The position numbers were made by a program, and so were the translations under genes. Shown here piece after piece: positions 13,247 through 57,661 of a stretch of 59,335 nt of DNA (positions are counted from its first letter, which is position 1; each line of letters opens with the position of its first letter). The stretch lies in the NCBI RefSeq assembly GCF_005404945.1, contig NZ_BJDG01000021.1, forward strand, positions 1 through 59,335, given 5' to 3'. This DNA comes from Lactiplantibacillus pingfangensis (GTDB lineage Bacteria; Bacillota; Bacilli; Lactobacillales; Lactobacillaceae). The notes beneath the pieces were generated by a model. It was given only the letters and a program-made list of their open reading frames with translations. It did not search any database and was not told the DNA's origin.

Positions 13247-13678
13247 TAAAGGTTGAAAGATCAAAATCGCTAGTAATTACTACCATGTCAATGATTAGGA
13301 CATGAAGATTAGTTGACATGACCGCTTCCAGTCGCCACTGATAACACGCGGTCGTGGGACCGGATCAAGCCTGAGAAACGTCTTGGTCCTCGCCCGTAGC
13401 CCTTGCACAATTCGCAAGTGTCCCGGACCGTCCGTGGCGTAACGCCGGCAAGAAACATGCCGCCCCAACGCCACCTTCACGACCGATGCCATCAGCGGCG
13501 ACTTCCAGCTAATTTAAGTATTCTTAGGCTAGGGTTAGCGGAGGCATGCAGAATTGTTGTGCTGCGACTGTCCCTACAGCACAGCAATTCTGCATGCCGG
13601 AGCGGGATCAGCACTAATTTTAAAGTGCCTGTTACCTATATGACAGTGTTTAAGGACCCTTTTGTCCTTTCAACCTTC
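13247..13678 (-). mobile_element. MITE-like palindromic element, copy 1 (subtype I)
   Basis: The ends are AAAGGTTGAAAGATCAAAA (from 13248) and the reverse complement of AAGGTTGAAAGGACAAAA (to 13677). The branched core, 13325-13508, has an outer stem of about 17 bp enclosing three hairpins, in reverse orientation relative to the copies at 24 and 30 kb. Possible decayed target repeats GCACTTTAC (13238-13246) and AGACTTTAT (13679-13687) flank it. No coding capacity is supported. It abuts copy 2. Confidence 0.8.
13543..13610. repeat. Nested hairpin module, short form
   Basis: GGCATGCAGAATTG and its near-complement CAGCAATTCTGCATGCC bracket GTGCTG/CAGCAC arms and a short loop. This is the outer stem of the longer module at 19.07 and 24.26 kb with its interior deleted. 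Confidence 0.7.
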
Positions 13679-13688
13679 AGACTTTATC

Positions 13689-14123
13689 TAAAGGTTAAAA
13701 GGTGGCTAGTGGCTATCAGATAGCAGTATTTACATACGAAATATTACTCACAGACAGCCAATGAAAGCATTGAGAAAGTTCAAAATATTGCCGACTGGCT
13801 CAATGATTTTCAAGAATCAGATCAACCGTTTTTAACGTCATTTACTTTATAACCATTGACCTAGCTGAAGGGCGTCGCTGATTGCATCGGACGTGAAGGT
13901 CCCGTTAGAGCGGCGCTTTTTGCCGGTCTTACGGGATGGACGGTCCGGGATAGTTGCGATTTTTGCAACCATTCCGGGCGAAGGTCAAGACCGCTTCTCA
14001 GGCTTGACCTGGTCCCTCGTCCGCATGTAATCAGCGACGCCCGGAAGCGACAACCTTGACTATTTTCGTACCAACGTACCGTTACGACAGCGCTTATGAG
14101 TGGTTTTCATCTTTCAATCTTTA
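13689..14123 (+). mobile_element. MITE-like palindromic element, copy 2 (subtype II)
   Basis: The left end AAAGGTTAAAAGG and the right end CTTTCAATCTTT are related terminal inverted repeats. The core, 13869-14047, has the outer stem GGCGTCGCTGATTGCAT with ATGTAATCAGCGACGCC and three hairpins whose sequences differ from subtype I but pair equally well. The left third carries an open frame, 13724-13852, ending in NESIEKVQNIADWLNDFQES and a short tail; it is also present at 57.3 kb and looks like the end of a lost gene. Confidence 0.8.
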
Positions 14124-14202
14124 ACATTTTTTCATAGATTATGCAACTTGCATAAGCATTTTGACCCATTTCCAGCTATCCTAGGATTTGTGCTCAGGGG
14201 TG

Positions 14203-15264
14203 TTATGACATGAACTGGCCAATCCAACTGATCAGCACTAGGACCACGATGGCCTCGGCAGCGCGCAGCCACCATCGATAGCGGACCCAGTTGCCCTGAT
14301 TAACACGTCGACAAACCCAGCGATTGACCAAATGCATCACGACTGGTAAGCCAATCATGATAAAAATAGCACTCAATGTCACGACTTGATCTCGCGGATG
14401 TGGGTCAGTAAAACTGGCTAAAACAATTACGAGCCAAAGTCCCACGTACGACCACCATAGTGCTTTTTTAAGTCGTGGCCAGGCGGTCGGCAACCATTGC
14501 TTAACTTGTGAGGCTGTCAATTTTGACGGTTGTTGTGGTGTTATGGCAGCCAAAAAATCAGTCGCTGTTTGATAACGTTGCTGTGGATCAATCGCCGTTG
14601 CGCGTTCGATGATTGGACGCCAATACTCATCCGTCGTTAATTTCGTCATACTCGCTTGTCGGGTGGTCGGGACATTTCCAGTCAACAAACAGTTCAACAC
14701 AATTCCGAGTGAATAAATGTCACTGCGGCCGTCGGTTTGGGCAAAGCCATAATTTTCCGGTGCCGCAAAACCACTCGTCCCAAGGAGCCGGGTGTCGCTA
14801 CTTTTATCATGTTGATATTCACGGGCCGCACTGATATCAATTAAGTAATAGTGTTGGTGACTGACCATAATATTGCTTAGCTTGACGTCCCGATGCACAA
14901 TGCCTAGCTGTGCAAGTTGTTGCAAACTTTGACTGACATCTAAGGCCACTTGTTGCACGTCAGTTGGGTTAAACGTCCCTTGATGAGCTAATTCATCTGC
15001 CAAGGAGTGACCATTGATCAGTGTTTCAATACTCAGTTGGCAGTCTGGCGCTTGCAAAACAGCTTGCACCCGTGGCATTAGCGCAATTGGCTGTACCTTT
15101 AATTTTTCAGCAATACGCAACTCTGCTGGCGTAATCAACTTGGCGACAAACACGACTTGTTGCTGTTGAACCAGTAGTGGAAACTCCCGCCCAGTAATCA
15201 GCGGCCCTAATGGTGTGTAATCATGCGCTGCTAGCAGTTGCATTGCTTGAACGATCGGTAACAT
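14203..15264 (-). CDS. Membrane-anchored Ser/Thr protein kinase-like protein
   Basis: The catalytic loop HRDVKLSN (about residue 147), the conserved lysine in VFVAKLI, the APE-like APENYGF and DGRSDIYSLGIVL all mark an Hanks-type kinase. The metal-binding DFG is replaced by DIS. The glycine-rich loop is poorly kept, so activity is uncertain. About three membrane helices follow residue 270, and there are no PASTA repeats, so it is not PknB/StkP. The start at 15264 is chosen because AAAGGGG lies 8 bases upstream. It is divergent from a DUF4064 protein. Confidence 0.85.
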   Translation of the reverse strand: MLPIVQAMQLLAAHDYTPLGPLITGREFPLLVQQQQVVFVAKLITPAELRIAEKLKVQPIALMPRVQAVLQAPDCQLSIETLINGHSLADELAHQGTFNPTDVQQVALDVSQSLQQLAQLGIVHRDVKLSNIMVSHQHYYLIDISAAREYQHDKSSDTRLLGTSGFAAPENYGFAQTDGRSDIYSLGIVLNCLLTGNVPTTRQASMTKLTTDEYWRPIIERATAIDPQQRYQTATDFLAAITPQQPSKLTASQVKQWLPTAWPRLKKALWWSYVGLWLVIVLASFTDPHPRDQVVTLSAIFIMIGLPVVMHLVNRWVCRRVNQGNWVRYRWWLRAAEAIVVLVLISWIGQFMS

Positions 15265-15329
15265 CTTACTGGCCCCTTTCTTAATCAGTTTCAATACCTA
15301 GTCACAGTCAAAAATTTGGAGGAATTACA

Positions 15330-15704
15330 ATGTCAAAAGAAACAATTGTTAATGAAAATAATCAAAAAACGATTCAAACCAATCGTCCCCGCACAGCCGA
15401 ATTAGTCCTTGGAATTGTCGGCGGCATTTTCGGGATGATTGCCGGCATTATCGCCATCGCTATCGGCGGACTTGGTAGCGCGTTTGGTGCTAGCGGCAGC
15501 GGTAGTATCGGTGGCTTGGGGGGTGCTTGTATCGCCGTCTCGGCACTGGCGATTGTCTTAGCCGCACTAATTAACAAAAATCACAAATTAATGGGTTGGC
15601 TCATCATTATCTGTGGCGTGCTAAATATCGTTTTTGTGAGTTACTTTGGTATCTTGAGCGGACTCTTAATTATCATTGCTGGTGGTCTAGCACTTAGAAA
15701 GTAA
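15330..15704 (+). CDS. DUF4064-like small membrane protein
   Basis: A 124-residue protein with a short polar N-terminus and four membrane helices, the first being ELVLGIVGGIFGMIAGIIAI followed by a Gly/Ser/Ala-rich loop. The arrangement matches DUF4064 proteins of Firmicutes, whose role is unknown. GGAGG precedes the ATG. Divergent from the kinase gene, it could be functionally linked to it. Confidence 0.75.
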   Translation: MSKETIVNENNQKTIQTNRPRTAELVLGIVGGIFGMIAGIIAIAIGGLGSAFGASGSGSIGGLGGACIAVSALAIVLAALINKNHKLMGWLIIICGVLNIVFVSYFGILSGLLIIIAGGLALRK

Positions 15705-15776
15705 CTTTTTAATCGTTTTAACGCTGCGAATTCTGGTACACTTAAACCATTAATGAACAGTCGAGGTAATCTAGTT

Positions 15777-16208
15777 ATGGCACAAAAGACATCAGAATTA
15801 CTCAACGAAATCATGCACGCTAAAGAGGCCGACCAATTTATGACAAATGTCGAAACCAATTTTGCTCACTTCGAACCAGCTGAATATTTAGCCGAATTAT
15901 TACACATTAAAGGCCAAACTAAAAGTGTGGTGATTCATCAGGCCAATCTCACACCGACGACTGGCTATCAATACTTTGACGGTAAACGTCGTCCCAGTCG
16001 GTCGCGCCTGTTGGCACTTGGATTTGGGTTTCACTTATCTTTAGACGAGACCAATACCATGTTAAAACGTACGGGCTATGCCCCACTCTATGCCAAAGAT
16101 GAATGGGACGCCTTAGTTATTTTTGCCCTCGTGCAACGTTTTAATCTGAACCAAACCGATGAACTTTTATTTCAATACGGTTTGGGCACGATCACCGCCG
16201 CCAACTAG
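15777..16208 (+). CDS. HTH-domain protein, XRE-like
   Basis: A soluble protein of 143 residues. QTKSVVIHQANLTPTTGYQYFDGKRRPSRSRLLALGFGFHL fits a lambda-repressor-type helix-turn-helix in which the recognition helix reads a DNA half-site; it is split here only by the quoting of sub-motifs VIHQANL and GKRRPSR. It has no sensor domain. The start at 15777 is supported by GAGG 10 bases upstream, not the earlier in-frame ATG at 15753. It follows the DUF4064 gene and may be co-transcribed. Confidence 0.7.
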   Translation: MAQKTSELLNEIMHAKEADQFMTNVETNFAHFEPAEYLAELLHIKGQTKSVVIHQANLTPTTGYQYFDGKRRPSRSRLLALGFGFHLSLDETNTMLKRTGYAPLYAKDEWDALVIFALVQRFNLNQTDELLFQYGLGTITAAN

Positions 16209-16271
16209 CAACGAAAATGGGTACAGCAAATTTCAGCAGTCAACCTTCTGCAATAACAATTCAGAAAGATC

Positions 16272-16308
16272 ACCGAGCTTGGAGCTTAACGCCAGGCTCG
16301 GTTTTTTT
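16272..16308 (+). terminator. Rho-independent terminator
   Basis: ACCGAGC and GCTCGGT form the stem base, followed by seven T. It ends the HTH-gene transcript immediately before the convergent TauE gene stop. Confidence 0.85.
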
Positions 16309-16310
16309 AG

Positions 16311-17033
16311 TTAAAATACCAAATAATAACAACCACTTAGCCCAATAAAAGCGTAAATCACGCGCCGAACCATTAACATGTTCATGTGTGGCAAAATTCG
16401 ACCGGCTAAAAGTGTCCCCAACATGGCGCCTAACATGCCAATTAAAACGATTGGAATATCCGCTGAGCTTAAAATACCCGTTGAGACCCGAATCGTCGTG
16501 ATGTAAATAATATCAATCAAGAAAAAAGTTTGTAAGTTAGCAATATAATCTTCGGTCGTCTGCGATAATGATAAGAAATACAAGGCCATCAGTGGGCCGC
16601 CAATCCCAAATAACCCATTGAAAAACCCTGAGATGATCATAAAAGCCCCTGCAACGTAAAAGGGATAGCGCTGCGTTCCCGCTTGTTTGGAGAGCGTGAA
16701 ATAAATTGCTAATCCGACTAACAGCCCACCCAACAAGGTCCGCAGCAACTGGACGTCTAACACTTTGCCTAAATGAACTGACCAGGCCGCAACACTCGCG
16801 TATATGATAAACGGGATGATAATTCGCTTGAGTCGAATATGTTGTCGATAGCGCACGACCATTGTGATCACGCTAGCGGCCATAATTAGTCCGGCCACCC
16901 CGGCGCTCTGGTCAATTGGTAACAATTGCGGCAAAAAAATCATCATAATAATAGCCGCACCAAATCCAGTTAGCCCTTGGACTAGCCCCGCTAAAAATCC
17001 GGGTAAAATTACGAGTAACCACGTCACTGCCAA
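16311..17033 (-). CDS. TauE/SafE-type sulfite/organosulfonate exporter-like membrane protein
   Basis: A 240-residue protein of about eight membrane helices with the duplicated family glycine motifs: GLVQGLTGFGAAIIMM near the N-terminus and GFFNGLFGIGGPLMALYF in the middle. Family members move small anions such as sulfite or sulfoacetate; the substrate here is unknown. The start is TTG with GAGG five bases upstream; a GTG two codons later is equally possible. It lies downstream of azlCD on the same strand, with a weak terminator between. Confidence 0.85.
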   Translation of the reverse strand: MAVTWLLVILPGFLAGLVQGLTGFGAAIIMMIFLPQLLPIDQSAGVAGLIMAASVITMVVRYRQHIRLKRIIIPFIIYASVAAWSVHLGKVLDVQLLRTLLGGLLVGLAIYFTLSKQAGTQRYPFYVAGAFMIISGFFNGLFGIGGPLMALYFLSLSQTTEDYIANLQTFFLIDIIYITTIRVSTGILSSADIPIVLIGMLGAMLGTLLAGRILPHMNMLMVRRVIYAFIGLSGCYYLVF

Positions 17034-17080
17034 CGCCCCCCTCTCTTGATAAATTGTCTTGCAACTTGGTTTCCTATTCT

Positions 17081-17108
17081 AAAAAAAAGAACCAGCCTAT
17101 GCTAGTCC
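17081..17108 (-). terminator. azlCD terminator (weak stem)
   Basis: GACTAGC and GCTGGTTC pair imperfectly and are followed on the minus strand by eight T. Confidence 0.6.
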
Positions 17109-17126
17109 CATCGTTAAAGTTATTTT

Positions 17127-17477
17127 TCAAATATGCAGTACTAGCACAAATATCATCACTGACACCAAGCCAATGACCACTGATAAGGTCATTGACCGGG
17201 TTCTAAAGGCGATAAAACCAACAATAATTGCCGAAATAATCATGCCTAAATTTCCTGATGTCATGACTTGGTATTTGCTATCAATAAAGACACTTTTCAC
17301 AACTAGTGCCGTGAATAACGACACCGGCACAAAGCGCATCCACTCGTTAAACCACTCTGGAATTTTGCGCTTCGTAAAGAATAGTAATGGAAAGAAACGT
17401 GGAATAAACGCCACAATGGCACAAAAGATGACCAACCAAAAGTGGTCCAAACTACTCATTGAACTGACTGATTGCAT
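17127..17477 (-). CDS. azlD: AzlD-like branched-chain amino acid exporter, small subunit
   Basis: 116 residues with four membrane helices. IPRFFPLLFFTKRKIPEWFNEWMRFVPVS contains the AzlD-typical RFFPL and KRKIPEW elements (quoted in short). With AzlC it forms a branched-chain amino acid efflux pump; in Bacillus azlCD overexpression gives azaleucine resistance. GAGGGG precedes the ATG. It starts 20 bases after the azlC stop, so the two form one operon. Confidence 0.9.
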   Translation of the reverse strand: MQSVSSMSSLDHFWLVIFCAIVAFIPRFFPLLFFTKRKIPEWFNEWMRFVPVSLFTALVVKSVFIDSKYQVMTSGNLGMIISAIIVGFIAFRTRSMTLSVVIGLVSVMIFVLVLHI

Positions 17478-17497
17478 AATTAAAACCCCTCTGTACC

Positions 17498-18265
17498 TTA
17501 CTTGTCAGAGTCTTCCTCCATGGCCGAATGACCAGTGGGATCGTGAACTTTATATAACAAATGACTTTCTGGCTTATGTGCGATTAACTGGCGTTCAATA
17601 AAGTAGCCAGTCAGTGACGCCAATAACGTCGCGACAACTAATCCTAACGTACTCTTCATCAAAACTAAGAAGAAAATCGTTAATACGCCAGATAACGCAC
17701 AAACTAAAATCGTTAAGCGACTCTTTGTTTGCATAATTGCCATATAAATGAATAGCGCGGTTAACGCAAAATCGACGACACTTAGATTAATGGTCAACGC
17801 ACTCCCAATTAGACTGCCGACAATATTGCTGACTGTCCAAAATAGTAGTGAATAGTGCTCAACTAACATGGCCTGACTAGGTTTCCACTGCTTATCCGTC
17901 GCAAACTTTAAATAGTTCACGGCATAATTTTCGTCGTTCATCGAGAACGCAAAAAAGAAGATAAACGGTAACCGTTGTCCCTTTAAATAACGAGACAAGC
18001 TTGACCCAAGCAACGCGTAGCGTAACTCCAAGAAAAACATCATCAAAATAATTGTTGTCATTGGTGCATTGATGGTCAACATCGATGCAATTAAAAATTG
18101 GGCACCACCGGAAAAGACCAATACTGAGATTAACGCTGTCAGTAGATGGTTGAACCCGGCCGCATGCAATAAAACCCCACAAGCAAGACCAATGGGAATA
18201 TAGCTCAGCCCAAGTGGCATTACAGTCCGTAATACCATTAACCAATTTGGCTCGTTCTTTTTCAC
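17498..18265 (-). CDS. azlC: AzlC-like branched-chain amino acid exporter, large subunit
   Basis: The family opening MPLGLSYIPIGLACGVLL is followed by FSGGAQFLIASM and ELRYALLGSSLS, all AzlC hallmarks, with about seven membrane helices. I start at the GTG at 18265 (VKKNEPNW), because GGAGG lies 8 bases upstream. A longer frame to 18310 has no ribosome site. A perfect cre box lies 144 bases upstream, so the operon may be under CcpA control. Confidence 0.9.
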   Translation of the reverse strand: MKKNEPNWLMVLRTVMPLGLSYIPIGLACGVLLHAAGFNHLLTALISVLVFSGGAQFLIASMLTINAPMTTIILMMFFLELRYALLGSSLSRYLKGQRLPFIFFFAFSMNDENYAVNYLKFATDKQWKPSQAMLVEHYSLLFWTVSNIVGSLIGSALTINLSVVDFALTALFIYMAIMQTKSRLTILVCALSGVLTIFFLVLMKSTLGLVVATLLASLTGYFIERQLIAHKPESHLLYKVHDPTGHSAMEEDSDK

Positions 18266-18408
18266 CAAGAATGCCTCCAGTACCTTACCAGTAAAGAATT
18301 CTAGCAACATTGTCTGATGTCTATTTACTTAGACATTCGGGTCTAATTTTAACATGTTTCACCCGTCAATCCTACCTCTAACATTAGATTGTTCGCTTAT
18401 TCACGAAA

Positions 18409-18422
18409 AGCAAACGCTTACA
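18409..18422. promoter_or_regulatory. Candidate cre (CcpA) site
   Basis: On the minus strand TGTAAGCGTTTGCT fits the consensus TGNAANCGNWNNCW at every fixed position. It lies upstream of azlC and just downstream of the GNAT gene stop. Confidence 0.6.
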
Positions 18423-18433
18423 TTAACTATTTT

Positions 18434-18931
18434 CTAATCAAAATGCTTTCCAAGAATCACCAAATCATTTGGCCGTTGGTCCAGCTCAGCCACTGCTGGT
18501 AAAAATCCCCATTGGTCATAGCCAAATTTCTTAAATAATTTAATACTTGGCAAATTACTTGAAAAGACATAGGCCAGTAAAACTTTCAGCCCCGTCAACG
18601 TTACTTGAGTTGGCACCATTTCAAGCACCTGACTGCCAATCCCTTTGCCTTGAACACTGCGATCAAGATAAATCGAAATTTCAGCCGTTTTTGCATAAGC
18701 CGCCCGTCCATAAAATGGTGAGAAGCTCAACCAGCCAATAATCAACCCATCATTGATAATTACCCACAATGGATAGTGATCAGTAGTGTGCGCCAAAAAC
18801 CAGTCCCGACGCTGGTCAACAGTCACCGGTTTCAGATCAGCAGTCACTTGATGTCCTGGTATGACCTGGTTATAAATATCCACAATAAGTGGTAAATCTG
18901 ACATCGTTGCACTGCGTAAGGTTATCCCCAT
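18434..18931 (-). CDS. GNAT family N-acetyltransferase (phosphinothricin-acetyltransferase-like)
   Basis: 165 residues with the GNAT fold. ITLRSATMSDLPLIVDIYNQV opens the domain, and the acetyl-CoA loop is DRSVQGKGIGSQVLE. VIINDGLIIGWLSFSPFYGR resembles the Pat/Bar subfamily. It likely acetylates a small amine; the substrate is unknown. The start at 18931 follows AAAGGA by about 10 bases. Confidence 0.88.
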   Translation of the reverse strand: MGITLRSATMSDLPLIVDIYNQVIPGHQVTADLKPVTVDQRRDWFLAHTTDHYPLWVIINDGLIIGWLSFSPFYGRAAYAKTAEISIYLDRSVQGKGIGSQVLEMVPTQVTLTGLKVLLAYVFSSNLPSIKLFKKFGYDQWGFLPAVAELDQRPNDLVILGKHFD

Positions 18932-19045
18932 GACATTCAATCCTTTCACAACAACCTATTTTGTAAAACCCTTTCTTTATTATACCGTTATTCAGAAAAT
19001 GCCACATTTCTTTTTCATGTCACTTTATCTGACAAGTCATTTTTT

Positions 19046-19399
19046 GAGTGATCCCGCTACGGCAGGCAGAAATCGCTGTGCTATGGTGGGACAGTCGCAG
19101 CCATAGTGCGGTCTGCGACTTCGATTTAAAGCCGATAACCCACGTCTTTAAATCGCCCTGTAAGATTAGGCGGCCAAGACCCGCCGGCCAATCTTACCGA
19201 CACAGCACAACGATTTCTGCCCGCTTCCGCTAAACCTAACCTAAAAACAGTTAAATTAGCTGGAAGTCGCCGCTGATAACATCGGTCCCACGGCCGCATG
19301 TTATCAGTGGCGACCGGAAGCGGTCATGGCAACTAATCTTCATGACCTAATCGTTGACATGACAGTAGTTACTAGCAATTTTGTTTTTTCAACCTTTAA
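19046..19399 (+). mobile_element. MITE-like element, copy 3 (subtype I, interior deleted, with nested module)
   Basis: Only the outer stem of the core remains at 19261-19320: GTCGCCGCTGATAACAT pairs with ATGTTATCAGTGGCGAC, and the three inner hairpins are gone. The right inverted repeat is kept (to about 19399); the left end is missing. The nested hairpin module is full length at 19065-19232. Confidence 0.75.
19065..19232. repeat. Nested hairpin module, long form
   Basis: The outer arms GCAGAAATCG and CGATTTCTGC (with TGTGCT/AGCACA inside) enclose three hairpins: GTCGCAG/CTGCGAC, CGATTTAAAG/CTTTAAATCG and TGTAAGATT/AATCTTACxxACA. The same layout with paired substitutions occurs at 24255-24410. 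Confidence 0.75.
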
Positions 19400-19407
19400 G
19401 CTAGGAC

Positions 19408-19441
19408 TAAAAAAACACCTAAAACCGAAGTCTTAGGTGTT
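19408..19441 (-). terminator. dacA terminator
   Basis: AACACCTAA and TTAGGTGTT form a perfect stem, with a T-run on the minus strand. Confidence 0.9.
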
Positions 19442-19452
19442 CAAATGACTAT

Positions 19453-20787: not shown

Positions 20788-20860
20788 TTCTCAATTATCC
20801 CTTTCCTGAATGCCGAATCTAATATAGTTAAGTTTAATTAATTCCATGCCCTGACACAAG

Positions 20861-24189: not shown

Positions 24190-24640
24190 ATTATAAATCA
24201 CTATCATGTCAGCAACAGACATTACCAACACAAGACTCGTGGTAAGCGCTCCGTCAGTCAGAATCGTTGTGCTATGGTGGGACAGTCCCAGCCAAAAAGC
24301 GGTCTGGAACTTCGATTCAAAGCCGATAACCCACGTCTTTGAATCGCCCTGTAAGATTAGGCGGCCAAGAACGCCGACCAATCTTACCGACACAGCACAA
24401 CGATTCTGCCTGCCTACGCTAAACCTAAAAAACAGTTAAATTAGCTGGAAGTCGCCGCTGATAGCATCGGTCGTGACCGTGGCGTTGGGTCGGCATGCTT
24501 CTTGCCAGCGTTACGCCACGGACGGTCCGGGACACTTGCGATTTGTGCAAGGGTTCCGGGCGAGGGCCAAGACGTTTCTGGCTTGGACCGGTCCCACGGC
24601 CGCATGTTATCAGCGGCGACTGGAAGCAGCAATCTCCAGG
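24190..24640 (+). mobile_element. MITE-like element, copy 4 (subtype I, with nested module)
   Basis: The most complete interior in the window: the nested module at 24255-24410 is followed by the branched core at 24446-24627. The outer stem is GTCGCCGCTGATAGCAT with ATGTTATCAGCGGCGAC. Hairpin 1 is CCGTGGCGT/ACGCCACGG, hairpin 2 is CTTGC/GCAAG within CCGG arms, and hairpin 3 is CCAAG/CTTGG. Both terminal inverted repeats have decayed. Confidence 0.75.
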
Positions 24641-30339: not shown

Positions 30340-30704
30340 CAAAGGGTTGAAAGGACAAAAGGCTTGTAAATACTGTCATATAGGCAACAGACACTTCCAA
30401 ATTAGTAGTAATTTCGCTTCAGCTAAACCTAACCTAAAAACAGTTAAATTAGCTGAAAGTCGCCACTGATCCCATCGGCCGTGACCGTGGCGTTGGGTCA
30501 GCATGTTTCTTGCCGGCGTTACGCCACGGACACTTGCGATTTGTGCAAGGGTTCCGGGCGAGGACCAAGACGTTTCTCAGGCTTGACCCGGTCCCACGGC
30601 CGCATGTTATCAGTGGCGACTGGAAGCGTTCATGGCAACTAATCTTCATGACCTAATCATTGACATAGCGGCAATGATTAGGTATTTTGATCTTTCAGCC
30701 TTTC
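30340..30704 (+). mobile_element. MITE-like element, copy 5 (subtype I) with target-site duplication
   Basis: The ends are AAAGGGTTGAAAGGACAAAA (30341-30360) and the inverted TTTTGATCTTTCAGCCTTT (30685-30703). GCTAGTTGA occurs directly outside both, at 30331-30339 and 30705-30713, as a perfect 9-bp direct repeat. The core is at 30454-30627. A nine- to twelve-base gap removes part of hairpin 2's lower stem. No nested module is present. This copy best defines the element boundaries. Confidence 0.85.
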
Positions 30705-30749
30705 GCTAGTTGAACTAACCCGGATGCTTACGAGTTATCATTTCCCGAC

Positions 30750-32100: not shown

Positions 32101-32280
32101 GTGAATAATCCCTCTTCCCTATAAATGTTGACAATCCAATAAGTGACCAAAAAAAGTTCCTTTATTAATTTACCATTTCCACCAGCTTTATGGTAGGAAT
32201 ATTTTAAGGTTTCCTTAAGGGATTATTTGAAAAAAGAACGTAAAAAAGCGACTATGACTTCAAAGCTTTATAGTCGAAAC

Positions 32281-32390
32281 GTGCAACAAAAGGCTGCGAC
32301 CTCCGCTTAGCTACGGAATCCGAACGATTGAAAATTCCAATCATTCGGATTCCTAGGCTATGCTCGGTAGCAACCCGCCTTTTGTCGCAC
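32281..32390. repeat. 110-bp hairpin repeat, copy 1
   Basis: GTGCAACAAAAGGC pairs with GCCTTTTGTCGCAC at the base, and GGAATCCGAACGATTG pairs with CAATCATTCGGATTCC near the tip, with CCGCTTAGC/GCTATGCTCGG between. A second copy of identical length is at 59096-59205. No coding frame is supported. Confidence 0.8.
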
Positions 32391-32484
32391 TCTAAGAAAT
32401 AATCAAGCTCGAAGTTGCGCTCAACTTCGGCCCCTGCCAAGGAACCTTATTATACCGTGTTTGGCACTTGAGCGAACTAATTAT

Positions 32485-36029: not shown

Positions 36030-36360
36030 AACACAAAAAAAGCTTGTAACTGTCGCCATCAGTCAAACCGGACAGTTCTAGCAATATTAGGTAGCCAATT
36101 ACTATTACCGACCACGATGCCAATTATCTCCACTAAGCTTAATAGCTGAAGGTTGGGACTGATAACATCGGTCGTGATGGTGGCGTTAATCGGCTGATTT
36201 TGCTGATTTTGCCGATTTTACACCACGGACGGTCCGGGACACTTGCGATTTTGGCAAGGGTTCCGGGCGAGGTCCAAGACGTCCCTGGCTTGGACCGGTC
36301 CCACGACCGCATGTTATCGGCCCCAACTGGAAGTGACCGCCGTTAATCAGTCTGTATGAG
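36030..36360 (+). mobile_element. MITE-like element, copy 6 (subtype III)
   Basis: The left end GGTTGAAAACACAAAAA is recognisable but decayed and the right end is lost. In the core (about 36150-36340), the outer arm GTTGGGACTGATAACAT pairs with ATGTTATCGGCCCCAAC, and hairpin 1 has a TCGGC/GCCGA tip. Hairpins 2 and 3 match subtype I. Confidence 0.7.
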
Positions 36361-36480: not shown

Positions 36481-36742
36481 GTGAAACGTCCGGATGAGAT
36501 GAGTAGTCCGCGTTTTCAGCTAAGAGAGTTGCCAGGACGGGTGCAAGGCAATCTGAAAACAAAGATGAAGATGGTCTCTAAATGGTTGCGGTGAGCACAA
36601 TGTAAGCCGTAAACGCCCTGTACCCGTTACCGTACTTGAGTTAATTAAACTCATGGAGCTGAATCATGTGAATGGTTCAGAAACAAAGGTGGTACCGCGA
36701 TTGCATTCGTCCTTTTTACTAAGGATGGTTGCAATTTTTTTA
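36481..36742 (+). promoter_or_regulatory. T-box riboswitch leader
   Basis: A classic tRNA-sensing leader. Stem I carries an AGTA S-turn (36502-36505) and the stem GTTTTCAG/CTGAAAAC. It has a distal AGAGAGTTGCC bulge region, and the T-box AAAGGTGGTACCGCG at about 36686-36699 pairs with uncharged tRNA ends. A terminator (ATTGCA..CGTCCTT with AAGGATG..TGCAAT plus seven T) ends at 36742. The 3' side of the specifier loop (36561-36573) reads AAAGATGAAGATG, so ATG (Met) at 36565 is a candidate specifier, but register is uncertain. Confidence 0.92.
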
Positions 36743-36776: not shown

Positions 36777-37595
36777 ATGAAAAAATGGGTTAAACAATTA
36801 GGTGTCGCAGTTTTAGGGGTTGCATTAGCAGTAACTTTAACGGCTTGTGGGAAGGCTTCGAACAGTAGTCGCACGTCATCGAGTGCCGCCAGTTCAAACT
36901 TAGGTTTGCAACAGTCGGGCACCTTAACGATTGGCTTGGAAGGTACCTTCAAGCCTTACAGTTATCGTTCCAATGGCAAGCTAACTGGCTTTGAAGTTGA
37001 TCTAGGTAAGGCGATTGCCAAGAAACTAGGTTTGAAAGCAAAATTTGTCCCAACGAAATTTGATTCTTTGATTGCGGGACTGGATGTGAATAAATATGAC
37101 GTTGTGATTAATGATATCGCCGAAACACCAGCTCGCGAAAATAAGTACCTTTTCTCAACGCCTTATATTTATTCGAAATCACAACTCGCGGTTAAGAAAT
37201 CATCAACAATCAAGAAAATCACTGAGATTAAAGGAACTAAGATTGCGCAAACCACAACTAGCAATAATGCTGCGGATGCCAAACGTTTAGGCGCGACCGT
37301 CACCCCAACGGATGGGTTTCAACAGTCAATTGATCTGGTTTCACAAGGCCGGGTAGCTGGGACGATTAATTCGCGTGAAGCCTTTTACGCCTACTTCAAG
37401 CAAAATAAGAACAGTGATATTCGGCTAATTAATGCGGGTTCTTCGATTGCCACCTCTAAGATTGGCGCCATCTTCACGAAGAAACACGCTAAATTGCAGA
37501 CCAAAGTTTCCAAGGCTATCCAAGACCTGCGGCAAGATGGGACTTTAACAAAGCTCTCTAAAACTTACTTTGGTGGCGACGTCACTAAAAAATAA
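36777..37595 (+). CDS. Amino acid ABC transporter substrate-binding lipoprotein
   Basis: A signal peptide ends in the lipobox LTAC (Cys about residue 23), then a Ser-rich linker and a SBP_bac_3 polar amino acid binding domain: GTLTIGLEGTFKPYSYR, GFEVDLGKAIAKKLG. 272 residues. It is the first gene behind the T-box leader and is about 70 percent similar to the next gene, a tandem paralogue. The likely operon is SBP-SBP-permease-ATPase. Confidence 0.95.
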   Translation: MKKWVKQLGVAVLGVALAVTLTACGKASNSSRTSSSAASSNLGLQQSGTLTIGLEGTFKPYSYRSNGKLTGFEVDLGKAIAKKLGLKAKFVPTKFDSLIAGLDVNKYDVVINDIAETPARENKYLFSTPYIYSKSQLAVKKSSTIKKITEIKGTKIAQTTTSNNAADAKRLGATVTPTDGFQQSIDLVSQGRVAGTINSREAFYAYFKQNKNSDIRLINAGSSIATSKIGAIFTKKHAKLQTKVSKAIQDLRQDGTLTKLSKTYFGGDVTKK

Positions 37596-49133: not shown

Positions 49134-49140
49134 ACACACT

Positions 49141-49315: not shown

Positions 49316-49341
49316 CGGTTAATCATATCCCCAATGATTAA

Positions 49342-50748: not shown

Positions 50749-50814
50749 TTTTGATTTCCCACTTTCCTGTAACTTCATTAGTTACATTAAATCAACTTTA
50801 AGCCGATTTGTCAA

Positions 50815-51170
50815 CTAGAGACCATCTCAACTAAAGATTGACTGACGAAAATCACTAATAAATGCTGTCGTATCAGTACATTGGTAACGAAAAGAAGTCA
50901 ACGTTGCCGCTTCCTGGCGTCGCTGATTACATGCGGACGAGGGACCAGGCCAAGCCTGAGAGGCGGTCTTGGCCTTCGTCCGATGCAATCAGCAACGCCT
51001 TCCAGCTAGGTTAATGGTTATAAGGATAAAAGGCTTAAAAATAGTTGATTAAATTCTTGAAAATAATTACGTCAGTTAGAAATTCTTTGGACTTTCTCAA
51101 TACTTTTATTGGCTATCCGCGAGTAATATTTCGTGTGCAAATACTGCTACACTGGAATTAATAGCCACTC
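50815..51170 (-). mobile_element. MITE-like element, copy 7 (subtype II, reversed, interior deleted)
   Basis: Outer arms of subtype II (GGCGTCGCTGATTACATGCG with its partner CGATGCAATCAGCAACGCC) and hairpin 3 remain at about 50908-51003; hairpins 1 and 2 are gone. Beyond them lies a decayed minus-strand copy of the relic frame, including SSVAVFAHEILL. It abuts copy 8. Confidence 0.75.
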
Positions 51171-51171
51171 T

Positions 51172-51425
51172 TACTAACACAGCACCGCGTTTTTTCTTGA
51201 CTCCGCTAAACCTAATAACTGTAGGTTGGGACTAATCACATCGGTCGTGAAGGTGGCGTTGAATCGGCCGGGCTTGCCGATTTTACACCACGGACGGTCC
51301 GGGGCACTTGCGCTTTTTTGCAAGGGTTCCGGGCGAGGGGCAAGACGTTCCTGGCTTGACCCGGTCCCACGACCGCATGTGATCAGTCCCAACCGGAAGT
51401 GACAGCACTTAATTAATCTGTATGG
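51172..51425 (+). mobile_element. MITE-like element, copy 8 (subtype III)
   Basis: The core at 51222-51400 has outer arms GGTTGGGACTAATCACAT and ATGTGATCAGTCCCAACC, fully complementary yet different from subtypes I and II. Three hairpins are kept. A trace of the nested module's right arm (ACACAGCAC..) lies at its left. Confidence 0.8.
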
Positions 51426-51433
51426 GCTTTGGA

Positions 51434-51479
51434 GACACAAAAAGGAACCATGACTTGATGTCACAGCTCCTTTTGTGTC
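51434..51479 (-). terminator. PTS operon terminator
   Basis: GACACAAAAGGAGC and its partner with an inner TGAC/GTCA stem; T-run on the minus strand. Confidence 0.88.
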
Positions 51480-51537
51480 GCGTCTATTTTGAAAGCCGCT
51501 TATGCCAAACACTTTTTTCAATGCAGCATAGGTTTCC

Positions 51538-53541
51538 CTACGCAGCTTGTTCCCCTAAATGTTTCTTTTTTGGTGCAGTCTTAACGTTTTTAACATCTTC
51601 ATCGGAGAAGCCAAACATGTAAGTCAACGTGAAGGCAACAATAATGTCGGCGATTGATGCAATCCAGAAGCCCCAGAAACTAAAGTCCAAGCCTTTCGGG
51701 TTTACGAATGAGGTGAAGCCAATCAATGAACCAGCAAAGCCCCACATATTAACGTGCATCAAACCAGTTAAGAACCCACCGACGGCCCCACCAATGCTGG
51801 CAGTGACGAAGGCCCGACCGTACTTCAAGTTAATCCCGTACATTGCGGGTTCAGTAACACCAGAGAAGGCTGAAATTGTTGCAGGCCAAGCTAATTCTTT
51901 AATGTTGGCTACTTTAGACTTCATCGCAATGGCTAAGACGGCCCCACCTTGGGCAACCATCGTCGCAGAAACAATCGCGTTCAAATAACTGTGTCCGGTC
52001 GTGGCAATATCGTTGGCCACAATCGGAATAACCGCCCAATGTAAGCCGAAGATAACCAAGACTTGATAAAAGCCACCAATAATCAACCCGGAAATTGCGG
52101 GACTGAGTTCGTAAATCTTAACAATCCCAGCCGCGAGTGCGCCAGATAAGGCAGTAATAATTGTACCAAGGAATAAGATAATCGCACCAGAAACAATGAT
52201 AACTTCGAGTAATGGGACAAAGATCATCCGTAGAACCGTTGGGATCACACGTTTGAGCCATGGTTCCAACTTGCTGGCCAACCAAGCACCGGCAATCATT
52301 GGGAAGATGGAATAACTGTATGACGCCACGTGGACTGGCAGACCGAAGAATGTCGCATTAATCCCCATACCTAGTAAGTGACTCGTGACTTTCCCAGTTG
52401 TCGCAATTGCCACAATCGTTGGATACGTCAATACCCCACCAATGATCCCCATAATAACGGGATCAGAGCCTAATTTCTTTGCAGCAGTAAAGCCGACGAA
52501 AATCGGCAGGAAGTAGAAGACGGAATCTCCCATCGCATTAATAATCACATAAGTTGTCGTGGTTGCCGAGACGAGTTTGAAGGAAGTCAGTAGGGCCAAG
52601 ACCCCTTTTAAGATACCTGAAGCGGCTAACAACCCAATCACTGGAATCATGGAACCGGTGATAACCCCAATTAAGGCGCTAAAGCCATGTTTAACTTTTT
52701 GCCAAGGTGTCATCTTTTTCCAAGCGGCCTTGTTAGCTTCTTTTTCACTGGCGATGGCCGATGCATCGTCATCTCCGAAGCCAGGGCCAAGTTGCGCAAC
52801 CACTGCGTCATACACATCGTTGACGGCTGGACCAATAACGACTTGATATTGGCCGCCAGCCTTGGCGACATCAATGACACCCTTTAAATCTCGAATGACA
52901 TCATCTTTCGCAATACTTTCATCCTTTAAGTAAAACCGAACCCGGGTAATACAATGAATGACACTCTTAACGTTCCCAGCACCACCAATATTCGTGATGA
53001 TCTGGCGCGCTAAGTCATCGTACTTGCCGCCATTTCCCTTGGTCACAGCTGCGGCAGCCGGTGCCGTGGTCGTTTCAGCTTGCAAATCAACTTGTGCAGC
53101 GACTGCGCCAGCCGTCACATTGCCTAAGTTCGGCGTTAATGCGGCAACCTTATCCGCAGTATTGGTGACTGCCAGAATTACCGTAGTTTGCTTGCCGGCC
53201 GCTTTTACCGCGGCTAAATCCATCGTCCCAATCTTGTCACCGGCTTTAACTTCGTCGGCGACTTGCACACTGAGCTTAAACGGTGGGTTGTCTTTCAACT
53301 CAACCGTATCAATGCCTAAGTGAATTAACACTTCCAAACCATCCGTAGTCGCAAAGCCAATCGCATGCAAGGTCGATGCGACCATCGTAATTCGCCCGCT
53401 AACTGGTGCGACGATTTGACCATTGGTTGGTTCAACCCCGAACCCTTTTCCCATCATACCTTGTGAAAACACCGGATCTTTAACATCGCTTAAGGGTATT
53501 ACTTGCCCTTTGATTGGTGATAATAATTGCACTTGTTTCAT
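51538..53541 (-). CDS. PTS sugar transporter IIABC, probably trehalose
   Basis: 667 residues, domains in the order A-B-C. IIA (residues 1-155) has His59 (TLHAIG) and phospho-acceptor His74 (VLIHLGIDTVEL). An Ala/Thr-rich linker leads to IIB (about 172-255) with Cys197 in IHCITRVRFYL. IIC (about 285-645) is the membrane channel with GVTEPAMYGINLKYG. It belongs to the glucose-superfamily beta-glucoside/sucrose/trehalose group. Trehalose is inferred from the adjoining hydrolase. It starts 14 bases after that gene, in one operon. Confidence 0.92.
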   Translation of the reverse strand: MKQVQLLSPIKGQVIPLSDVKDPVFSQGMMGKGFGVEPTNGQIVAPVSGRITMVASTLHAIGFATTDGLEVLIHLGIDTVELKDNPPFKLSVQVADEVKAGDKIGTMDLAAVKAAGKQTTVILAVTNTADKVAALTPNLGNVTAGAVAAQVDLQAETTTAPAAAAVTKGNGGKYDDLARQIITNIGGAGNVKSVIHCITRVRFYLKDESIAKDDVIRDLKGVIDVAKAGGQYQVVIGPAVNDVYDAVVAQLGPGFGDDDASAIASEKEANKAAWKKMTPWQKVKHGFSALIGVITGSMIPVIGLLAASGILKGVLALLTSFKLVSATTTTYVIINAMGDSVFYFLPIFVGFTAAKKLGSDPVIMGIIGGVLTYPTIVAIATTGKVTSHLLGMGINATFFGLPVHVASYSYSIFPMIAGAWLASKLEPWLKRVIPTVLRMIFVPLLEVIIVSGAIILFLGTIITALSGALAAGIVKIYELSPAISGLIIGGFYQVLVIFGLHWAVIPIVANDIATTGHSYLNAIVSATMVAQGGAVLAIAMKSKVANIKELAWPATISAFSGVTEPAMYGINLKYGRAFVTASIGGAVGGFLTGLMHVNMWGFAGSLIGFTSFVNPKGLDFSFWGFWIASIADIIVAFTLTYMFGFSDEDVKNVKTAPKKKHLGEQAA

Positions 53542-53555
53542 CGCGAAGTCCCCCT

Positions 53556-55208
53556 TTACTTTAAATCGCGTCGTAAGGCAATTGCTTCATATGGTTGTAA
53601 AATCACAGCATTACCAACCACGGTGGCGTCATAATTCGAAATTAGGACCTGCGCACCGACAAATTCTGGTGGTAACTCGACTGTCGTTTTTCGACCAAAG
53701 AAATTAGTCAAAACGGCTACCTGCTGGCATGAACTCGTCCGCAGATAACCCAACACTTGGGGATGATCTAATAACAGTGGTTGATAATCCCCATCTGAAA
53801 TCGCTGAAACTTGTTTTCTTAACTGAATTAACCGTTGATAATAGCTAAATATTTCCCCATGAGCCAGCTCATCCGCCACGTTGATAGTCGCCTGATTCGT
53901 TGGTTTCAACCATGGTGTTCCAGTCGTGAATCCGGCCGTTTTCGGGGCCGCTGTCCATTGCATCGGCGTCCTGGCATTATCACGAGACTTGACATGTACG
54001 AGATGAAACGCCGCCCGATCACTATGACCTTGGGCGCGTAACTGCCGATAAGCATTGTGACTTTCGATATCCACATAATCATCAATCTCATGATATTGTG
54101 GATCAGTCATGCCAATTTCTTCCCCCATATAAATAAAGGGGGTGCCGCGACCTAAATGAATGACCGTCGCCAACATTTCAGCGGATTTTTCCCGATAATG
54201 CGTCACATCGCCAAACCGATTCACTGCCCGTGGTTGATCGTGGTTATTCCAAAATAACGCATGCCAACCGCCAGCTGTAGCCATGCCTTGTGCCCAATCG
54301 TTCATAATATTTTTCAAGGCCGGAAAGTCAAACTGTCGATCAGTCCATTTGTTGCCGTGATCATAATCGACTTTGAGATGGTGAAAATTGAAGACCATCG
54401 AGAGCTCATGATGTTCAGGTTGCGTATAAGCGATACTGTTCGCCAACGTGGCCGAGGACAATTCACCAACCGTAATATCTTCCGGATGCTGACCAAAGCT
54501 GGCCGCATTTAGTTCCTTTAAATAGTCATGCACAATTGGTCGATCGGTATAAAGCAACTTACTGCTCATCGTCGGTGGCGCATCCAACAACGTTTCATCC
54601 TTACCAATCACATTGATGACATCAAATCGGAAGCCCCGAACCCCTTTGCGTTGCCAATAATTAATGATATTGGCACAAGCTTGACGAACCGCAGGGTGAT
54701 GCCAATCTAAATCTGCTTGCGATGGATCAAACAAGTGCAAGTAGTACTGACCAGTCTCTCCGAAAGGCGCCCAAGCTGAACCGCCAAACTTCGATTGCCA
54801 ATTCGTTGGTGAACTTCCATCGGCCTTGGCGGGACGGATATAATAATATTGCTGAAACTCAGGGTCACCTGCCAAGGCTTTTTGAAACCACTCATGCTGT
54901 GTCGAGGTGTGATTGAACACCATGTCCAGCATGACATCAATCCCAACATTTTTTAAGGCTTGCACCAACTCATCAAAATCCGCCATTGTCCCAAATAAGG
55001 GATCAATTTGATAATAGTCTTCAATATCGTAACCATTATCACGTTGCGGTGAGACAAAGAACGGATTGAACCAAATCATATCCACGTTCAGACGCGATAA
55101 ATACGGCAGCTTTTCAATGATTCCCCGTAAATCACCAATGCCATCGCCATTGCTGTCATAAAACGATTTAGGATAGATTTGATAGATCACTTTTTGTGAA
55201 AAGTGCAC
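53556..55208 (-). CDS. treC: Trehalose-6-phosphate hydrolase-like GH13 enzyme
   Basis: Splits trehalose-6-phosphate (or a related alpha-glucoside) to glucose and glucose-6-phosphate. IYQIYPKSFYDSNGDGIGDL opens a GH13 barrel; the nucleophile is the Asp of RGFRFDVIN, the acid/base the Glu of TVGELSS, and NNHDQPR carries the third carboxylate. About 550 residues, as in TreC/TreA. The start is GTG at 55208 after GGAGGGGG. First gene of a two-gene operon with the PTS; a cre box lies 47 bases upstream. Oligo-1,6-glucosidase is the alternative reading. Confidence 0.88.
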   Translation of the reverse strand: MHFSQKVIYQIYPKSFYDSNGDGIGDLRGIIEKLPYLSRLNVDMIWFNPFFVSPQRDNGYDIEDYYQIDPLFGTMADFDELVQALKNVGIDVMLDMVFNHTSTQHEWFQKALAGDPEFQQYYYIRPAKADGSSPTNWQSKFGGSAWAPFGETGQYYLHLFDPSQADLDWHHPAVRQACANIINYWQRKGVRGFRFDVINVIGKDETLLDAPPTMSSKLLYTDRPIVHDYLKELNAASFGQHPEDITVGELSSATLANSIAYTQPEHHELSMVFNFHHLKVDYDHGNKWTDRQFDFPALKNIMNDWAQGMATAGGWHALFWNNHDQPRAVNRFGDVTHYREKSAEMLATVIHLGRGTPFIYMGEEIGMTDPQYHEIDDYVDIESHNAYRQLRAQGHSDRAAFHLVHVKSRDNARTPMQWTAAPKTAGFTTGTPWLKPTNQATINVADELAHGEIFSYYQRLIQLRKQVSAISDGDYQPLLLDHPQVLGYLRTSSCQQVAVLTNFFGRKTTVELPPEFVGAQVLISNYDATVVGNAVILQPYEAIALRRDLK

Positions 55209-55254
55209 CCATACCCCCTCCAAACCTAACTCGGAATTAAGTAACGCAAGCTTT

Positions 55255-55268
55255 AGAAACCGCTTTCA
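55255..55268. promoter_or_regulatory. cre (CcpA) site upstream of the trehalose operon
   Basis: On the minus strand TGAAAGCGGTTTCT fits TGNAANCGNWNNCW fully. Position in the promoter region fits carbon catabolite repression. Confidence 0.75.
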
Positions 55269-55377
55269 TTTACTCGTAACCATCATATCGACCTCAACGC
55301 TGATGGTCAAATATAACCTAACGATTTATTCGCTTATATGATGATTTAACGGACGACTTTATTAGTTAACTTACTTT

Positions 55378-56028
55378 CTAATGCAAGTGCAACTGCTGGT
55401 CAGCAAGAAAAGAACGTTGAAAGTCTGGTGCTGATTTAACTTGTTTCCCGAATTCAACAATCAACGCATGAAATTCGCGCGCCGCCGCAAAGTCAAAACG
55501 CCAATTGGCCGCAATCACAGCTTGGGCTTTCACATATGAACTAGGTAAGTTGACGCCTAGCCAAGTGAATAGCCGACGCAAATAGGTGTCCACAATAATT
55601 GTGGGCTTATTAAACACATACATACTGAAGTAATCCGCCGTTTCATCACCAATCCCTTTGAGGGCTTTGAGTTCCCGCCGAATCTGGGTGGCAGGTAACG
55701 CCCGAATTTTAGCCAGATCAAAGCCATAGTGACCACTCCAAGCGGCTAAGCCTTGTAGCGTCGGCACTTTCCGCGTGTAAAATCCTGCCGGCTTAACTAA
55801 GGCCGTTAACTCGCTCGGGGTTAAGGCTAAGACCCGTTCTGGCTCAAATTGCGTCGCTTGTTTTAAATTAGCCAACGCGTAGTCAACGTTGCGCCAATTT
55901 GTATTTTGGACTAACACGCCACCCCATAAGATCTCCCAGGGCGTTTCTGCCGGCGCAACACCAGGTTCCAACCAATGTTGCGGGCCCATCGTCGTTAACA
56001 TTAAGTGATAAAGTTCATCAATCGTCAT
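55378..56028 (-). CDS. HhH-GPD DNA glycosylase without Fe-S cluster
   Basis: Endonuclease III-superfamily fold, 216 residues: LVQNTNWRNVDYALANL at the N-terminus, the helix-hairpin-helix LKALKGIGDETADYF and the catalytic Asp in IIVDTYLRRLF. The lyase lysine of EndoIII (GRKTA) is replaced (GDETA), and the protein has no cysteine, so no 4Fe-4S cluster. It is likely a monofunctional glycosylase for alkylated or mismatched bases. I start at 56028, 7 bases after GGAGG. Confidence 0.88.
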   Translation of the reverse strand: MTIDELYHLMLTTMGPQHWLEPGVAPAETPWEILWGGVLVQNTNWRNVDYALANLKQATQFEPERVLALTPSELTALVKPAGFYTRKVPTLQGLAAWSGHYGFDLAKIRALPATQIRRELKALKGIGDETADYFSMYVFNKPTIIVDTYLRRLFTWLGVNLPSSYVKAQAVIAANWRFDFAAAREFHALIVEFGKQVKSAPDFQRSFLADQQLHLH

Positions 56029-56045
56029 TAATTTTCCTCCCAAAT

Positions 56046-56076
56046 AAAAAAAGCGCTCGGAATTTTCCTCGCGCTT
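56046..56076 (-). terminator. Rho-independent terminator
   Basis: AAGCGCGAGG pairs with CCGAGCGCTT, followed by seven T on the minus strand; it ends the reductase/85-residue transcript. Confidence 0.85.
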
Positions 56077-56141
56077 CGATTTATGCTTTATGATAATTGA
56101 ACTGACCCTTAAATAACAGTCAATAGTTCTGATTGTCCGAA

Positions 56142-56399
56142 TTAATCGTCAGTGACACTGGTCCGCTTAACGGTTAAGACGATATCTGCTTTTCTGTTAG
56201 TTGGTTTGACCTTTTCAGCGAAGTCCAAGCCGGCATCCTTAAATAAGTTTTGAACTTCAGTATTAACTAACGGTAAGTCGCGAGGATCTCCGGCTTGCTG
56301 GCGAATATAAACGACATATTCATCTGGCAATTCTTCCAAATCGTACTCAACATCTTCATCATTTAAAATGACATAAATCAACTTACGTTCTCTGTTCAT
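56142..56399 (-). CDS. Small acidic hypothetical protein, 85 residues
   Basis: Not recognised. Begins RERKLIYVILNDEDVEYDLEELPDEYVVYI (shown here only as LIYVILNDED and EELPDEYVVYI) and ends KADIVLTVKRTSVTDD, suggesting a small alpha/beta protein. Acidic, no membrane part. It lies 35 bases downstream of the FMN reductase gene on the same strand, so probably in one transcript. Confidence 0.7.
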   Translation of the reverse strand: MNRERKLIYVILNDEDVEYDLEELPDEYVVYIRQQAGDPRDLPLVNTEVQNLFKDAGLDFAEKVKPTNRKADIVLTVKRTSVTDD

Positions 56400-56434
56400 C
56401 TGAAATTACCCCTCAACGCTTATTTTTTTAGTTC

Positions 56435-56995
56435 TTATTCATTGACCGTATTTGCAGTCACTTGTTGCACAAACTTAAGGTAGTCCTGCGTACAATGATC
56501 GAGCCACTCAATGGTTGGTTGATCCGTAATATGCCCCGCAGCATCAAATTTGTTTTGAACCGTTCCCATCAAGAATTCATCACCAGGCATGGCTAAGGCC
56601 GCTACCCCGGGTGAATCTAAGATTTGGCGCAAATGACCTTGCGCCCGTACCGTTCCTAATGGTCCCATCGTGGCGCCCAAGATCATTGCTGGCTTCCCTT
56701 TTAACGGATGTTCAACCCGTGAGAGCCAATCGATCGCATTTTCAAGCACACCGGAAATACTGTGATTGTATTCTGGGGTGACAAAAATAACACCATCTGC
56801 GTCGAGGACTAACTGTTTGAAAGCCTTAACATTATCAGGCGCGGTTAGTTCAATATCTTGGTCATAGTACGGTAAGTCACGCAATGACGGAATGACAACT
56901 TCCATCTGATCCGCGTAACGGTTTTTCACATATTCGGCTAGTTTTTGATTGTACGAGGCATGTCGAATGCTACCAACAAGTGCAACAATTTTCAT
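56435..56995 (-). CDS. NADPH-dependent FMN reductase
   Basis: 186 residues of flavodoxin-like fold: VALVGSIRHASYNQKLAEYV binds FMN phosphate, VTPEYNHSISGVLENAIDWLS is the family signature, and PAMILGATMGPLGTVRAQGHL follows. Such enzymes reduce quinones, azo dyes or chromate in vitro; the natural substrate is unknown. AAAGGAG precedes the ATG. Confidence 0.92.
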   Translation of the reverse strand: MKIVALVGSIRHASYNQKLAEYVKNRYADQMEVVIPSLRDLPYYDQDIELTAPDNVKAFKQLVLDADGVIFVTPEYNHSISGVLENAIDWLSRVEHPLKGKPAMILGATMGPLGTVRAQGHLRQILDSPGVAALAMPGDEFLMGTVQNKFDAAGHITDQPTIEWLDHCTQDYLKFVQQVTANTVNE

Positions 56996-57094
56996 GTACT
57001 GGACACTCCTTTAAGCTGTATTTAAACTAAGTATACCCCTTTTTAGGAAGACTTGCGGAACCGGTTTCAAGTATTTTCAGAAATATTGTAAAAT

Positions 57095-57185
57095 AATGAA
57101 CTAACGGCGGGACCTGACCAGTTCCACAACCACCTATTATCAGTTACAACCCGAAGTGAATTCTGTATGGGCTTAGTTATTGGCG
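57095..57185 (+). mobile_element. MITE-like element, copy 9 (right-end relic, subtype III)
   Basis: GGGACCTGACCAGTTCCAC, a decayed ATCAGTT-CAACC arm and GAAGTGA then CTGTATGGGCTT match the right part of copy 8 in order. Left half lost. It directly precedes copy 10. Confidence 0.6.
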
Positions 57186-57218
57186 TGTTGGAACTTACAT
57201 GCAACTCTTAGCTTTCAC

Positions 57219-57661
57219 CTAAAAGTTGCATGATGGCTAGTGACTAGTAATCCCAGTGTAGCAGTATTTATACATGAAATATTAATACAGGCAACCAATG
57301 AAAGCATTGAGAAAGTTCAAATCATTGCCGGCTGGCTCAATGATTTTCAAGAATCAACTCAACTGTTTTTAGGGCCACTTACTTTATAACCATTAACTTA
57401 GCTGGAGGGCGTCGCTGATTGCATCGGACGTGAAAGTCCCGTTTGAGCGGCGATTTTTGCCGGTCTTATGGGACGGACGGTCCGGGATAGTTGCGATTTT
57501 TGCAACCATTCCGGGCGAAGGCCAAGACCGCTTTTCAGGCTTGGCCTGGTCCCTCGTCCGCATGCAATCAGCGACGCCCGGAAGCAACAACTTTGACTGC
57601 TTTTCGTTACCAATGTACTGGTAAGACAGCATTTAGTAATGGTTTTCGTCTCTCAACCTTC
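57219..57661 (+). mobile_element. MITE-like element, copy 10 (subtype II)
   Basis: The left end AAAAGTTGCATGATGG and right end CGTCTCTCAACCTT are diverged inverted repeats. The core (57405-57585) keeps the outer stem and all three hairpins of subtype II, about 90 percent identical to copy 2. The relic frame is open here from 57234 to a stop at 57387-57389 and ends NESIEKVQIIAGWLNDFQES plus a short tail. Confidence 0.8.

Follow-up and report, generated by a model that had tools for sequence, protein, structure and literature searches.

Miniature inverted-repeat transposable elements (MITEs) of the IS4 family have terminal inverted repeats (TIRs) and target duplications in common with an IS4-family element, and group IIC introns insert beside intrinsic terminators. 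High-copy intergenic repeats of Gram-positive bacteria are described for the Bacillus cereus group (bcr1-bcr18; PMC3446304): bcr1-3 are MITE-like and often form part of untranslated regions or operon spacers, and bcr10 and bcr18 have conserved secondary structures. Palindromic repeats of the REP, BIME and REPIN type, linked to RAYTs, occur as inverted dimers in many families, with spacers of mostly 20-100 bp, and one end of each 20-40 bp REP bears a GTAG or CGTC tag (PMC3733652). Here we analyse contig NZ_BJDG01000021.1 of Lactiplantibacillus pingfangensis (assembly GCF_005404945.1), a stretch of 59,335 nt hereafter called the window, in which a structured, mostly intergenic core of about 185 nt recurs.

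We consider it fairly probable that these elements form a non-autonomous mobile repeat family, that the core is its conserved payload, and that the fold works in single-stranded form, most likely as RNA, and is kept for a role. The core is non-coding, with a long outer stem around three hairpins; its plus strand reads 5'-TAGCYGGAGG...CCGGAGGC-3', and folds of -96 to -120 kcal/mol were predicted for the full window cores. An initial annotation of the window had listed three stem subtypes, together with pair exchanges in hairpins 1 and 2, and all of these are present in the sequence as listed.

A covariance model, R1, was built from the seven full window cores. In the 2.9 Mb genome that contains the window ("own genome" below), R1 matched at least 142 places, none overlapping; this is a lower bound, since 150 of 778 candidates were scored. 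A search of Lactiplantibacillus genomes, as the initial annotation had proposed, gave matches in 13 of 21, and the family-wide search extended the range to 69 of 397 genomes and 9 of 40 genera, the own genus included. In G328 and G365, genomes of two other genera, 149 and 131 matches were found among the 150 candidates scored in each. As a control, 80 other loci (1.36 Mb) were searched, and no R1 match below E 0.78 was found. The element family is larger than the initial annotation reported, and that text had missed the signs of mobility, the ends common to an IS4-family insertion sequence in the window's genus, the head-to-head pairs and the nine-genus spread. No Rfam family matched the window at the gathering threshold, permissive Rfam searches of part of the window and six loci gave no match on any core, and in open-licence papers no description of the element in lactobacilli was found.

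Covariation and strand preference of the core

About 2 kb on each side were fetched for 130 of the 133 own-genome places outside the window; the alignment excludes L287 and the three places on contigs C18 and C46. It contains 127 matches (E≤1e-18, a few of them shortened) from 99 loci and the window. All 127 copies are distinct, with a median pairwise identity of 80%, and are therefore not the recent duplication of a few sequences that, by the initial annotation's own criterion, would have refuted its reading. Standard pairs occupy 95.1% of 8865 pair cells, compared to 86.9% with the 3' letters shuffled and 32-41% with the arms slid, and changes on both sides are seen in 51 of the 71 pairs. 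For the 40 best-scoring copies, the mean minimum free energy z score was -9.1 relative to mononucleotide shuffles.

For a wider set, 93 loci were searched, drawn from other genera and related species as well as from the own genome; they gave 165 matches, of which 150 were aligned and 148 are distinct. Covariation was judged against a phylogeny-preserving null, in which the inferred substitutions were replayed on the tree at random columns, by a script of our own written after the manner of R-scape and not by R-scape itself. Across genera, 39 of the 71 pairs covary, with one adjacent and no unrelated column pair. Because this alignment had been fitted to the model, it was repeated from the sequences only, and 36 of the 71 pairs then covaried, with two adjacent column pairs and one elsewhere. 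The covarying pairs fall in the outer stem and in all three hairpins. Within the two other genera, the 27 copies from G328 have a median identity of 69% and are 96% paired, as opposed to 74% when arms are swapped between copies; for the 22 copies from G365, the figures are 64%, 93% and 72% (both sets being the best-scoring loci and their neighbours). We conclude that selection on the fold is well supported. The initial annotation had expected covariation above the phylogenetic background and had read it as selection on structure, as RNA or as folded single-stranded DNA, and both the covariation and the strand preference described below bear this out.

Covariation might also appear without selection, if template switching in quasi-palindromes copied a change from one arm to the other. 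Such a DNA-level artefact would suit the length and near perfection of the palindromes, and the many compensatory double changes on terminal branches (82 events). However, repair towards perfect palindromes should remove the three wobble pairs, which are kept in most copies (99 of 123, 110 of 123 and 98 of 124), and several unpaired columns are conserved across genera. Template switching should moreover be strand-symmetric, whereas G·T exceeds A·C in the cores, and we regard this explanation as improbable.

In the own genome, Watson-Crick pairs gave rise to G·T and A·C at a ratio of 134:93 on terminal branches and 42:8 on internal branches; with single changes only, the ratios were 133:91 and 41:8 (Fisher p 0.001). 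The plus strand is predicted to be more stable than its complement in 122 of the 127 own-genome copies and in 136 of the 150 copies of the cross-genus set. Such an excess of G·T is more in keeping with one folded strand, of RNA or of single-stranded DNA, than with a palindrome in duplex DNA. The folded object is thus likely to be a single strand, and it may be RNA. A scan of 107 G328 copies for a replication-strand split gave a best value of 35, compared to a random 95% level of 31, the observed scan having been run on a finer grid than the random ones.

Transposon ends, pairs and turnover

Ends of the CTRAAGGTTGAAAGRACAAAA type surround many cores, with at least one end in 77 of the 127 own-genome copies and both in 38; a left TIR (≤2 mismatches, within 600 nt) was counted in 62 copies and a right one in 59. 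Elements bounded by TIRs on both sides number 38, span 306-567 bp and contain no transposase gene. A flanking direct repeat of at least 6 bp is present in 17 of them, compared to 0.2 expected from shuffled pairing, and the target duplications measure 6-8 bp. The same ends bound an IS4-family transposase at four loci (L308, L320, L321 and L322) and a decayed one at L323; around the transposase at L324 they were not seen. The transposase gene was found in 5 of the 21 genus genomes: the own-genome gene (L308) is split into two pieces, and open genes are present in G013, in G004 and at one of two places in G001. Elements of G001 also have CTAAAGGTTGAAAG-type ends. At the core 24442..24627, the intergene is 674 bp long, versus 157 bp between the same neighbour genes in the close relative G001, and we count this intergene without insertion as evidence of mobility. 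Mobility of the elements is well supported.

Some short own-genome elements run from TIR to TIR with only a shortened core inside (C5:78755-79205, C13:8682-9089 and C46:5004-5452), so that the ends can apparently carry reduced interiors.

The TIRs, the target duplications and the matching transposase of the window's genus are what would be expected from an ordinary MITE of an IS4-family insertion sequence, with inert filler as its interior. Other genera, however, have cores without these ends, and the cores covary across genera. As a full account this explanation is already contradicted and very unlikely; at most, it could describe the vehicle that carries the cores in the window's genus.

Two other routes of mobility were considered and rejected. 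RAYT-type mobility was set aside as the distribution of Y1_Tnp within the genus does not follow that of the elements: no Y1 transposase match was obtained in six element-bearing genomes (G001, G004, G007, G010, G012 and G020), and G008, with 8 matches, carries no element. Retrotransposition through a resident reverse transcriptase was discarded as 9 of the 13 element-bearing genus genomes are without an RVT_1 match. A blastn search of plasmids and phages with one own-genome core gave no match, nor did a search of plasmids with two cores from other genera; two exact motif matches in viral contigs were not cores by the model at E≤0.01.

Neighbouring cores are arranged head-to-head (-+) in 10 of 12 cases in the own genome and in 30 of 32 outside it, where the other two are in tandem; tail-to-tail pairs were found in neither set. 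An edge motif of the partner core lies within 150 nt 5' of 42 of the 127 own-genome cores, compared to 2 on shuffled flanks. In G328 and G365, inspection by eye showed cores that stand singly or in pairs and have outer ends resembling TGCCGCCTCCGG.

Copy number seems to change fast, since G001, the nearest relative by one protein (99% identity), gave 21 matches of 124 scored versus at least 142 in the own genome. A comparison with G002 showed that only 7 of its 30 loci lie in an intergene common with an own full core, five in the same orientation and two in the opposite one. Core identity at these seven loci is 76-86%, and the outer stems are mostly different. Ten bases close to the core's left edge are identical only in the pair L365/L205, and nearly so in L366/L272; for L365/L205, the core is 86% identical and the flanks 64% and 76%.

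The head-to-head pairs and the low number of intergenes shared with G002, mostly with other outer stems, would be in line with a purely selfish element, in which the folded plus strand serves copying alone, being recognised by a mobility enzyme as RNA or single-stranded DNA in the manner of REP doublets, and copies then decay neutrally after insertion. The rise of the own-genome G·T:A·C ratio from terminal to internal branches also speaks for it. On the other hand, pairing does not depend on the presence of a TIR (median 95.8% paired in 77 copies with and 50 without). A DDE transposase would be expected to require nothing but the TIRs. Compensatory double changes are found on terminal branches too, and neither Y1 transposases nor reverse transcriptases track the elements in the genus. 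A purely selfish element is quite possible, if short of probable. Equal pairing with and without TIRs, together with deep divergence with intact folds, makes us lean towards upkeep after insertion, though the search favours intact copies.

Placement relative to genes was also recorded. In the own genome, 99 of 120 copies are faced by the 3' end of the neighbouring gene on the core's 3' side. We do not treat this polarity as general because it holds for 63 of 100 copies elsewhere and 11 of 25 in G328. An intrinsic terminator lies between the core and the 3'-side gene in 48 of 89 testable cases. Among 37 testable copies with a right TIR, 27 have a terminator, and 19 of these 27 begin 1-10 bp behind its T-run; among copies with a terminator and no TIR, 1 of 21 does so (both counts being without a random-position control).

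Copies in the window

The ten places named in the initial annotation all belong to the element family, but the single architecture ascribed to them is found only in the seven full cores. R1 detects these seven, two shortened cores and two diverged partner cores, and one relic was recognised by eye. TIRs had been ascribed to the copies in general; at ≤2 mismatches, three of the full cores have both, one has the right TIR only, and three have none.

Two elements lie next to each other at the left of the series. The subtype I element 13246..13680 (minus strand; core 13324-13511, 203.6 bits with R1) has IS4-type TIR motifs at 13249-13266(+) and 13660-13677(-) and is flanked by the 6-bp repeat TAAAGT, and the subtype II element 13688..14124 (plus strand; core 13862-14048, 201.0 bits) has a TIR at both ends. 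The third element with both TIRs, of subtype I, occupies 30340..30705 on the plus strand (core 30450-30627, 166.3 bits), with motifs at 30343-30360(+) and 30685-30702(-) and an 8-bp duplication, CTAGTTGA. The remaining full cores, all on the plus strand, are a subtype I core at 24442..24627 (201.7 bits), subtype III cores at 36143..36334 (175.6 bits, TIR not recognisable) and 51216..51400 (187.7 bits), and a subtype II core at 57399..57585 (199.0 bits).

Three of the ten places do not have the full architecture. By R1 and the predicted fold, the shortened core 19257..19321 (plus strand, 56.5 bits) has lost all three hairpins and keeps only the outer stem, with a right TIR motif at 19379-19396(-), and the shortened subtype II core 50909..51008 (minus strand, 58.3 bits) keeps only hairpin 3. 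The relic at 57105..57157 (plus strand) corresponds to the 3' half of a core and has no R1 match at E≤1. Two diverged partner cores (module B), blocks that the initial annotation had not named separately, are found on the minus strand at 19056..19232 (66.6 bits), inverted with respect to the shortened core that follows it, and at 24247..24422 (65.0 bits).

Directly 3' of the subtype III core 36143..36334, a candidate T-box leader was detected at 36482-36717 (+) (RF00230, 91 bits for a gathering threshold of 93). Downstream of this candidate come two similar genes in tandem, at 36777 and 37732, which we take to encode lipoproteins of an uptake system. Elsewhere in the window, 42-nt tandem repeats (family D1) occupy 114-389 within a minus-strand open reading frame, 26-1246, and two stretches of 127 nt, at 32267-32393 and 59082-59208, are 84% alike (family D9).

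Readings of the element and known systems

Under the reading we favour, a mobile family with a conserved single-stranded fold, an IS4-type transposase would move, or have moved, the elements in trans in the window's genus, and another enzyme would move the cores in other genera. The fold would act as a single strand, most likely RNA arising from transcription of the element, and might be maintained through binding of a protein or through an effect on where transcripts end at gene boundaries. A stronger form of this reading, a previously undescribed class of structured RNA spreading in the form of mobile repeats, to more than 100 copies per genome in many lactic-acid-bacterial genera, with the fold kept at each site for RNA work at gene boundaries, we find rather doubtful.

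Several observations weigh against the favoured reading. In the own genome alone, only 3 of the 71 pairs are significant under the tree-aware null, all of them inside the structure. The rate of change in paired relative to unpaired columns is similar on terminal (0.55) and internal (0.52) branches. Decayed copies are under-counted, because most copies were found with a model that favours structure and because the copies from G328 and G365 come from the best-scoring loci and their neighbours. The element-rich genomes G002, G010, G012 and G020 are without the IS4-family transposase. Near the G328 and G365 cores, the IS4 end motif was found in 4 of 29 cases (mean of 2.0 and up to 5 on shuffled flanks), and 16 core pairs from these genomes gave no sign of target duplications (mean shared word of 3.50 versus 3.31, sd 0.27); a pooled test over 37 core pairs likewise gave none beyond shuffling. 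Across genera, the G·T:A·C ratio shows no clear rise from terminal (136:51) to internal branches (88:31). Finally, in unpaired columns of the own copies, C>T changes outnumber G>A on terminal branches (0.087 versus 0.030 per site), so that the plain G·T excess may be partly mutational. The own-genome rise of G·T:A·C on internal branches is the part that such a mutational bias leaves unexplained.

The bcr repeats are like the present elements, by their description, in being high-copy, intergenic and Gram-positive. They are described for one group, whereas the present core, whose neighbouring copies follow a head-to-head rule, was found in 9 of the 40 genera sampled. Inverted dimers are common to our cores and to REPs and REPINs. 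The cores differ from these in their size (~185 nt) and four helices, in their TAGC...GGAGGC ends, with no GTAG or CGTC tag seen, and in having no link to a Y1 transposase in the genus, where REPs are linked to RAYTs.

To our knowledge, few structured intergenic repeats have base-pair covariation this broad across genera. The family would add to Rfam-style annotation, and lends itself to testing, in bacteria that are convenient for laboratory work, whether copying or an RNA role maintains high-copy bacterial repeats. Group IIC introns show a similar insertion beside terminators, but the present elements have TIRs and duplications, no Rfam match and no correlation with reverse transcriptases. 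With IS4-family MITEs they share the TIRs and the target duplications, but the structured cores also occur elsewhere without these TIRs: the same core is enclosed by the ends of one transposon in one genus, and in two other genera it stands alone.

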